Assembly (NCBI GenBank): GCA_017857895.1
Contig: JAFMCG010000008.1
Span: 1 to 36,731, forward strand
Reading direction: 5' to 3'
Length of the DNA: 36,731 nucleotides
From: Burkholderiaceae bacterium
GTDB lineage: Bacteria; Pseudomonadota; Gammaproteobacteria; Burkholderiales; Burkholderiaceae_B
Shown here: in pieces, positions 1 to 25,891 of the stretch
Position numbering within the stretch: position 1 is the stretch's first letter
How the letters are laid out: every line of letters starts with the position of its first letter
The notes under the pieces: model-generated
Databases searched by the model: none
What the model saw: the letters and a program-made list of their open reading frames with translations, nothing else
Told to the model about the DNA's origin: nothing
Program-made: the position numbers and the translations under genes

Positions 1-73
1 TGACGCACTGGAGCAGGCTGCTGGTGGTGCGCAGGGGGGAAACAGTAATCAGTACACTGTGTGCTGGTGTTAG
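1..73 (+). CDS. RiPP/bacteriocin-like precursor peptide 1, 3' portion (5' truncated by window): ...DALEQAAGGAQGGNSNQYTVCWC*
   Basis: Manual translation in the frame that matches precursors 2 and 3. Same DALEQAAGGAQGG leader/core junction, stop TAG at 71-73. Confidence 0.75.
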   Translation, partial: DALEQAAGGAQGGNSNQYTVCWC

Positions 74-126
74 CCATTACTGACCGGTAACCCATACCCA
101 CTTGGGTACTCAACCTAGGAGTCAAT

Positions 127-270
127 ATGAACATTGAACTTGATGAAGTAGTTGTACAGGATGTCTCTGATGACGCGCTCGAGCTTGCTGCTGGTGGTGC
201 GCAGCTGCAGGGGGGATTCCATTCACAAATATACACTGCATGCATGCCGGCAGTTGGGTGTAGCAGTTAG
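127..270 (+). CDS. RiPP/bacteriocin-like precursor peptide 2 (47 aa): MNIELDEVVVQDVSDDALELAAGGAQLQGGFHSQIYTACMPAVGCSS*
   Basis: ATG at 127 preceded by AGGAG (CCTAGGAGTCAATATG). Acidic leader, double-Gly motif, short Cys/Ser/Thr-containing C-terminus. Paralogous to 340..489. Absent from the ORF track, which lists only longer ORFs. Confidence 0.78.
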   Translation: MNIELDEVVVQDVSDDALELAAGGAQLQGGFHSQIYTACMPAVGCSS

Positions 271-339
271 CCATTTGTACTCCTAGCCATTGCTGACAGC
301 TAACCCATACCCACTTGGGTACTTAACCTAGGAATCAAT

Positions 340-489
340 ATGAATATTGAACTTGATGAAGTTGTTGTGCAGGATGTTTCTGATGACGCACTGGAGCAGG
401 CTGCTGGTGGTGCGCAGGGGGGGTGTGACAGTATGAACAGCTTTCCTTGCTCCGTCTCGGTGTTGGTGTTAGATATTGCTGACCGGTAA
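340..489 (+). CDS. RiPP/bacteriocin-like precursor peptide 3 (49 aa): MNIELDEVVVQDVSDDALEQAAGGAQGGCDSMNSFPCSVSVLVLDIADR*
   Basis: The first 26 aa differ from precursor 2 at one position (Q/L). Conserved upstream spacer CCTAGGAATCAATATG. Different C-terminus. Confidence 0.75.
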   Translation: MNIELDEVVVQDVSDDALEQAAGGAQGGCDSMNSFPCSVSVLVLDIADR

Positions 490-525
490 CCTACAACCTT
501 GGTCGTGGGTACTATAAGTAAGACT

Positions 526-546
526 GCCACCTTCGGGTGGCTTTTT
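526..546 (+). terminator. Intrinsic terminator after the precursor cluster
   Basis: GCCACC-TTCG-GGTGGC-TTTTT: perfect 6-bp stem, UUCG-type tetraloop, T-run. Confidence 0.8.
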
Positions 547-782
547 AACGCCCGAGCAGCATCGTTTGAGCAAAATACAGTGCATAGGTGTGCTAGGAGT
601 CCCGAACAGAATTAGGGGGGTGGGGGTACGGTGGGGTCGGCAGATCCCGCTTTTAATTTTTTGGTGGGGTTTCGCTTTCAAAGCGGATGACACCCCCTAG
701 GGGTAAGCAATGTGCAAATGACTCGGGTGATGGTTTGTTGATCGAAATTTCTTGGGTATGCCTTTGGGTATGTAAAAATAAA

Positions 783-816: not shown

Positions 817-907
817 TGGCGGACAGAGGGGGATTCGAACCCCCGATACGCTATGAACGTATACACGCTTTCCAGGCGTGCGCCTTCAACCGCTCGGCCA
901 CCTGTCC
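817..907 (-). tRNA. tRNA-Ser (anticodon GGA), CCA encoded
   Basis: Minus strand GGACAGGTGGCCGAGCGGTTGAAGGCGCACGCCTGGAAAGCGTGTATACG...GGGGGTTCGAATCCCCCTCTGTCCGCCA. Acceptor stem, GGA anticodon in a 7-nt loop, long variable arm and T-loop GGTTCGAATCC are all present. Confidence 0.95.
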
Positions 908-1003: not shown

Positions 1004-1621
1004 TTATTTGTGTTGCAGGATGCGTTGCACGTAGCGAGCGATGGTGTCGATTTCTAAATTAACTTGGTGACCGGGTTTGACGTGCTGCAGGGTTGTGACT
1101 TGCATGGTGTGTGGGATCACGTTGATGCTGAACTCGGTGCCCGTCTCGATGTCTGTGACGTCGTTAACAGTCAGGCTAATCCCGTTGACGGTGATCGATC
1201 CTTTGTAGGCTAGGTACATGCCGAGCGACTTGGGTGCATGTATGACAAGCAACCAAGATTCTCCAACGGATTCGAATTTGACGACCTGACCCAAACCATC
1301 GACGTGACCGGAAACCAAATGGCCACCGATCTGATCACCTATCTTGAGTGACTTCTCTAAGTTCACCGGACCTGGCTTTTGTAGGCCCATTGTTTTGTTG
1401 AGGCTTTCACGCGAAACGTCAGCCGTGAAGTGCTGGCTCTCTGGTAATGACGTCACGGTCATGCACGCGCCTTCGATGGCGATTGAGTCTCCGAGTTTGA
1501 CGTCAGACATATCCAAACCACCCACTTCAATCAGAAGCCTCACGCCACTGTCGGCTTGTCCGGGGTGAATCGTCTCAACTTTTTTAATCTGGCCAACGGC
1601 GGCCACAATGCCTGTGAACAT
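1004..1621 (-). CDS. ribE: Riboflavin synthase, alpha subunit
   Basis: MFTGIVAAVGQIKKVE... start, duplicated lumazine-binding repeats (ACMTV, SLTVNDV, SINVIPHT). The ORF track start (1786) is an upstream extension. Confidence 0.95.
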   Translation of the reverse strand: MFTGIVAAVGQIKKVETIHPGQADSGVRLLIEVGGLDMSDVKLGDSIAIEGACMTVTSLPESQHFTADVSRESLNKTMGLQKPGPVNLEKSLKIGDQIGGHLVSGHVDGLGQVVKFESVGESWLLVIHAPKSLGMYLAYKGSITVNGISLTVNDVTDIETGTEFSINVIPHTMQVTTLQHVKPGHQVNLEIDTIARYVQRILQHK

Positions 1622-25363: not shown

Positions 25364-25891
25364 ATGGCAACAGCCAAAAAAGTAGCAAAGAAGGCGCCAG
25401 CCAAGAAAGCAGCCGTTAAGAAAGTCGCTGCCAAAAAGGCCCCGGCAAAGAAAGTAGTTGCTAAAAAAGCACCAGCTAAGAAAGCCGCTGCTAAAAAAGT
25501 AGTGGCTAAAAAAGCGCCTGCTAAGAAAGTCGCTGCTAAAAAAGTAGTGGCTAAAAAAGCGCCTGCTAAGAAAGCCGCTGCTAAAAAAGTAGTGGCTAAA
25601 AAAGCGCCTGCTAAGAAAGTCGCTGCTAAAAAAGCGCCTGCTAAGAAAGTCGCTGCTAAAAAAGCAGTTGCTAAAAAAGCGCCTGCTAAAAAAGCAGTTG
25701 CCAAAAAAGCACCTGCTAAGAAAGCACCCGCAAAAAAGGCTGTAAAAAAAAGTCCTAAAAAACCGGCTGCTAAAAAAGCTGCCGTAAGAAAGCCTGCAAC
25801 TACTGCGCCTTCAACCGCTGCCGCACCTGGTGCGAAAACAGCACTGAACCCAGCTGCATCATGGCCTTTCCCAACGGGTGGTCGTCCTTGA
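25364..25891 (+). CDS. AlaLys-rich histone H1-like DNA-binding protein
   Basis: [25 protein letters not shown]... with pentapeptide xxAKK periodicity, C-terminus [23 protein letters not shown]. Confidence 0.9.
25480..25690 (+). repeat. Coding tandem repeats (about 15-aa/45-bp and 5-aa periodicity) in the H1-like gene
   Basis: Repeated GCTAAAAAAGTAGTGGCTAAAAAAGCGCCTGCTAAGAAAG[TC/CC]... blocks with near-identical codons. Confidence 0.85.

Follow-up and report, generated by a model that had tools for sequence, protein, structure and literature searches.

The stretch analysed here (the window) is 36,731 nucleotides long and comprises the entire contig JAFMCG010000008.1 (positions 1-36731; G000:C153) of a freshwater Burkholderiaceae bacterium, whose draft metagenome-assembled genome (MAG) is 89% complete in 207 contigs. 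Positions 1-546 hold micro-open reading frames (ORFs) that very probably encode lanthipeptide precursors: two complete genes of 47 and 49 aa and the end of a third (Table 1). An earlier sequence-only reading had proposed three precursors with one leader and divergent cores, and the sequences that it quoted match these ORFs exactly. Precursor 1 is cut by the window edge, as was then supposed: the first base of the contig falls within a repeated leader, so that the gene loses its 5' part there. Both complete genes carry a Shine-Dalgarno-like AGGAG or AGGAA 5-6 nt before the ATG, and the repeat unit of ~134 nt, upstream DNA included, is 90% identical between copies. Of 26 leader residues, precursors 2 and 3 differ in a single one, again as noted before; their leader DNA differs at seven codons, of which six are silent and one exchanges Leu and Gln (proportion of silent differences, pS, 0.364; of replacement differences, pN, 0.025), while precursors 1 and 3 have identical leader DNA over the shared part. 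Because the differences between leaders 2 and 3 are mostly silent, the array is probably translated, or recently was. Each core has the two Cys residues ascribed to it, in precursor 1 as CWC. The TGT-TAG (Cys-stop) that closes precursor 1 is also present at 467-472 in precursor 3 but out of frame, and the tail of the latter, ...VLVLDIADR, is read into the conserved 3' flank. Together with three relatives ending VLAIADR or VLPIAER, precursor 3 looks like a frame change running past the Cys-stop.

Table 1. Features of the precursor array and its surroundings (window coordinates).
Feature	Position	Strand	Basis or remark
Precursor 1, 3' part: DALEQAAGGAQ followed by GGNSNQYTVCWC and stop	2..73	+	leader part E 0.009, leader profile
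Palindrome TACCCACTTGGGTA, between precursors 1 and 2	95..108	.	sequence
Precursor 2 ribosome-binding site AGGAG	117..121	+	sequence
Precursor 2: leader MNIELDEVVVQDVSDDALELAAGG (127-198), core AQLQGGFHSQIYTACMPAVGCSS	127..270	+	leader profile E 1e-17
Palindrome TACCCACTTGGGTA, second copy, between precursors 2 and 3	308..321	.	sequence
Precursor 3 ribosome-binding site AGGAA	330..334	+	sequence
Precursor 3: leader MNIELDEVVVQDVSDDALEQAAGG (340-411), core AQGGCDSMNSFPCSVSVLVLDIADR	340..489	+	leader profile E 4.5e-18
Conserved 3' flank of the array	471..600	+	repeated beside precursors in relatives; part 90-100% identical to Zwartia
Intrinsic terminator GCCACC-TTCG-GGTGGC + TTTTT	526..546 (hairpin 526-541)	+	same hairpin after many precursors in relatives
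tRNA-Ser(GGA), 3' end toward array	817..907	-	insertion site common to both genera
ribE (riboflavin synthase)	1007..1621	-	syntenic anchor beside array and beside LanM loci of Zwartia G267/G268

Conservation of the leader in other genomes had been set beforehand as a test, and it was found. Of 269 genomes in the bacterial family, a leader profile matches 20, which belong to 2 of the 43 genera (Zwartia and that of the source organism); each has 1-15 copies, arranged in tandem or dispersed. The leader is shared far beyond chance, the complete ORFs of the array matching the profile at E about 1e-17 and relatives having dozens of counterparts. Nine same-genus genomes were searched and yielded four further copies, all in G006, a close relative with a RibE 98% identical to that of the window; its precursors are MNIELDEVVVQDASDDELEQAAGGSQGGLLWPTVNGHDCCVASW, MNIELDEVVEQDVSDNVLEQAAGGVQGGAYNGFFWNTRPAC, MNTELDEIVEQDISEDALEFAASGAHAQGNWPTVHFFSTSGCL and the contig-truncated VVQDVSDDALEQAAVGAQGGGTCDNVVSTVC. 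The leader-bearing Zwartia include the isolates Z. hollandica LF4-65 (G238) and Z. vadi IMCC34845; a paper on Z. vadi assigns the genus to GKS98, a freshwater cluster within the Alcaligenaceae (PMC10535154). Beyond the two genera, searches of the order (399 genomes), the class (369 genomes), viral contigs and plasmids gave no leader; the order and class sets are even samples, in which more distant leaders could be missed. A scan of 85,462 species genomes requires a near-match to short leader patterns, and more distant leaders could escape it; apart from a single MAG labelled Nitrosomonadales, all its records were Zwartia-type or from the sister genus. Public MAGs that bear the title 'Bordetella parapertussis' (L114-L122, L131, L137 and others; CAMBFI, CAMCZQ, CAMCII) group with Zwartia in the sets analysed, and their titles look misnamed. 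In the open literature (subscription papers were outside the scope) we found no paper that describes this system or links Zwartia and lanthipeptides; an open review estimates homologous clusters in alpha- and gammaproteobacteria (PMC12328550).

The fetched loci yielded about 75 ORFs with the leader, which is full-length in 71. The consensus, MNIELDEVVVQDVSDDALExAAGG, is a short, acidic sequence of 24 residues with a GG end. Mean identity among the 71 leaders is 79%, and most pairs of cores are <40% identical; compared in 2485 pairs, the leaders have a pN/pS of 0.25, a descriptive figure given that the pairs are not independent. Counted from residue 25, the cores average 19 residues and are rich in Gly, Cys and Thr. 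Cys occurs in 70/71 cores (the sole exception is cut by a contig end) and lies within the last three residues in 54, and Ser or Thr stands upstream of a Cys in 69. Cys makes up 9.4% of the core reading frame versus 4.1% in shuffled core DNA, and the 71 cores contain no stops, versus about 3% in other frames. Some cores recur across species (AYAQVSWLNLQTHCVA, GKYSVAWNYYCG and QMNYTVIKSYAGCNC types), and well-separated orthologous pairs differ mainly at silent positions (L103/L112, pS 0.40 and pN 0.046; L105/L108, pS 0.47 and pN 0.085). This silent excess suggests that some individual cores are maintained, though sister copies within an array differ completely. Decayed precursor copies are also present in relatives (e.g. 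L111). Searches of 22 precursors against Pfam and NCBIfam (E<=1) gave no Nif11 match; PF04604 matched two weakly (best E 4.5e-4) and NF040664 one, also weakly.

LanM, the class II lanthipeptide synthetase (PF13575; DUF4135 dehydratase plus LanC cyclase), occurs in 16/20 leader-bearing genomes versus 6/249 others of the family. One precursor of G006 lies 1.06 kb before a 1076-aa LanM (C35), with a GNAT acetyltransferase between them, and the truncated precursor copy is separated by 254 nt from the LanM-like gene that follows it (C135; 1018 aa). The C35 protein is identified as LanM by NCBIfam (lanti_2_LanM, E 6e-220), with which Pfam agrees, and its dehydratase and cyclase domains align with the CylM and LicM2 structures (PDB 5dzt, 6st5). 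Both this enzyme and the complete Zwartia LanMs checked carry the DxHxxN dehydratase motif and WCHG...CCG cyclase zinc motifs; at the position of CCG, CylM and LicM2 have CHG. CCG is present in all full-length LanMs next to the leaders, and of these only one degenerate paralogue lacks the dehydratase motif. In the literature, CCG is associated with LanMs that are promiscuous toward their substrates, ProcM and SyncM among them (PMC10027976, PMC10783134). Z. hollandica has nine precursors on two contigs and its sole LanM on a third, so modification must act in trans; many prochlorosin genes likewise lie away from their LanM (PMC7268733). The first reading had taken the array for leader-guided ribosomally synthesized and post-translationally modified peptides. 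That view is supported by leaders that adjoin and co-occur with LanM; the class, then left open, is narrowed by the relatives to class II lanthipeptides, although no LanM was found in the organism's own draft genome. Reached through these relatives, the predicted class II assignment is strongly supported.

Two features beside the LanM genes may be recorded here. The GNAT acetyltransferase, of ~300 aa, immediately precedes LanM in six genomes (at L012:10067-10972, at L084:1149-2063 and at four further loci), is truncated at L073:7196-7408, and is possibly a tailoring or self-protection enzyme; beyond it and LanM, precursor neighbourhoods share only housekeeping synteny or abundant Bug-type receptor genes. 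The LanM-like gene on G006 C135 (L013:352-3408) directly follows a precursor with the leader end AAVG, between two precursor 3'-flank copies and beside another tRNA-Ser. Its product has lost dehydratase residues (YKPK to YALQ, DxHxxN absent) and kept the cyclase zinc residues, and is possibly a cyclase-only LanM.

The array and the LanM loci of relatives share a chromosomal site. In the window the order is precursors, tRNA-Ser, ribE; in Zwartia G267 it is precursors, GNAT, LanM, precursor, tRNA-Ser(GGA), a chromate-transporter-like pair, ribE; and in Zwartia G268 precursor, LanM, ISL3 transposase, tRNA-Ser, ribE. G246 has a decayed precursor at the same tRNA-Ser, and the ribE contig of G006 stops two bases past it. 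With contigs ending at this site, assembly evidently fails here because of the repeated leaders and flanks. From the shared synteny and the contig break within a repeat, we infer that a LanM would lie to the left of the window, or elsewhere in the incomplete genome. The tRNA-Ser(GGA) beside ribE (window 817-907; L202:9078-10271) is a variable site in the genus: a tyrosine integrase is directly adjacent in G002, an AAA/DUF4143 protein occupies the site in G001, and lanthipeptide genes do so in G000 and Zwartia. Elsewhere in the window (25364-25891) is an alanine/lysine-rich, histone H1-like protein with KKAPAKK repeats, of a kind common in betaproteobacteria.

The DNA around the cores is conserved as well. 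After the cores the order is TGTTAG (Cys-stop), CTATTGCTGACCGGTAACCC, a palindrome, GCCACCTTCGGGTGGCTTTTT and AACGCCCGAGCAGCATCG, and 64/64 bp are identical between the window flank and Z. hollandica (G238:C22). Palindromes related to TACCCACTTGGGTA flank most precursors in relatives; the longer Zwartia palindrome ACCCACACCCACTTGGGCGTGGGT has 20 copies <=400 bp from precursors and none in 638 kb elsewhere in the fetched loci, where palindrome, terminator and tail alike occur almost exclusively within that distance. Each gene thus acts as one unit, in which a variable core stands between a conserved leader and a conserved tail. The flank at 471-600 of the window has about 30 matches in Zwartia and G006, beside precursors and 90-100% identical between the genera. 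Because the variable cores lie between conserved DNA, integron-like cassettes were considered; inspection by eye gave no convincing attC pattern, and integrases were not searched for. Among known RNA elements, only the tRNA was found in the flanks.

Altogether, the peptides of the array are very probably class II lanthipeptide precursors, belonging to a prochlorosin-like system of betaproteobacteria in which one enzyme serves many substrates. A CCG-type LanM, beyond the contig edge or elsewhere in the genome, would recognise the short acidic leader, dehydrate Ser and Thr of the core and close (methyl)lanthionine rings on Cys, after which the leader would be removed at or near the double Gly. 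Because recognition would rest on the leader, the cores would be free to diversify, and cells would carry a small library of cyclic peptides, whose export and biological role this scheme likewise only predicts. More tentatively, and with the odds in our judgement slightly against it, freshwater Alcaligenaceae may have evolved combinatorial lanthipeptides separately from cyanobacteria. Such a system would combine a single CCG LanM with a leader family that is new and short, precursor cassettes that diversify rapidly between stretches of conserved DNA (even the final Cys-stop TGTTAG lying in the flank), and leader removal and export independent of C39.

Several points weigh against the proposed system. 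The maturase that had been expected is missing: neither LanM nor a LanM fragment was found in the source's draft genome, whose contig ends inside the array. The expected lantibiotic-type C39 peptidase transporter was found in none of the 20 genomes with leaders; in 19 no C39 peptidase was found, and the single match (G268), considered as a LanT, was rejected as a type I secretion-like ABC protein with fused halves. The same search was positive in 8/14 control genomes. This leaves export and leader removal as the main gap in the mechanism; with no C39 transporter, the GG-like end may be cut otherwise, or the peptides may stay inside the cell. Furthermore, the link between CCG and promiscuity is a correlation from the literature, and product, rings and expression are predictions from sequence.

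The lack of a LanM would also fit a relict array, in which the enzyme was lost from this lineage, leaving three decaying precursors of a system still at work in G006 and Zwartia; the C-terminus of precursor 3, which reads past the usual Cys-stop, and decayed copies such as L111 point the same way. We consider this unlikely, since the leader changes between precursors 2 and 3 are silent but for one residue, all ORFs and ribosome-binding sites are intact, a contig break inside the repeat, where relatives have LanM, explains its absence, and the close relative G006 still has a LanM in which every motif is present. Double-glycine bacteriocins or signal peptides that stay unmodified, their Cys joined in disulphides instead of lanthionines, would account for the short leader, its double-Gly-like end and the C-terminal Cys pairs of some cores; this is very improbable given an adjacent and co-occurring LanM, core Ser/Thr nearly always upstream of Cys, and no sign of the C39 transporter that such bacteriocins normally need. 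Scarcely credible at all is a REP-like (repetitive extragenic palindromic) DNA family with chance open frames, which the conserved flanks, palindromes and terminators dispersed in genomes bring to mind, in the face of the silent excess in leader codons and in orthologous cores (L103/L112) and of 71 cores free of stops.

Among known systems, the lacticin 481-group/type-A class II precursors (PF04604, NF040664) resemble those described here in their short acidic leader, GG/GA-like end and class II LanM. They differ in that here most precursors have no match to these families, the cores are unrelated, no LanT/immunity cluster is present and each genome carries many cores. CylM and LicM2 serve one or two substrates; the G006 LanM aligns with both over its dehydratase and cyclase domains, but has CCG where they have CHG at the cyclase zinc site. 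The closest likeness in design is to the prochlorosins and SyncA-SyncM, ProcM-type class II lanthipeptides of marine picocyanobacteria, with a single CCG LanM and many precursors that have a conserved leader and hypervariable cores and often lie far from LanM (PMC10027976, PMC10783134, PMC7268733); here, the CCG LanM with many dispersed substrates is seen in relatives, not in the source's own draft genome. The idea that the system works like that of the prochlorosins is supported by this predicted gene content. It is not a member of the prochlorosin family, because the Nif11 leader and C39 features of that family were looked for and not found: the leader here has 24 residues and no Nif11 match, whereas theirs has about 60 residues and belongs to the Nif11 family (PMC10783134). 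The host, too, is betaproteobacterial, and LanM often stands beside a GNAT acetyltransferase. A LanM guided by so much shorter a leader would be useful for making cyclic peptide libraries. So far the prochlorosins have been the leading case of combinatorial lanthipeptide libraries in nature, whose purpose is a question; a second lineage of the same design with an unrelated leader, in the culturable freshwater bacteria Z. hollandica and Z. vadi, would allow that question to be asked, along with those of whether the spread of substrates is driven by CCG enzymes and how a leader comes off in the absence of C39.
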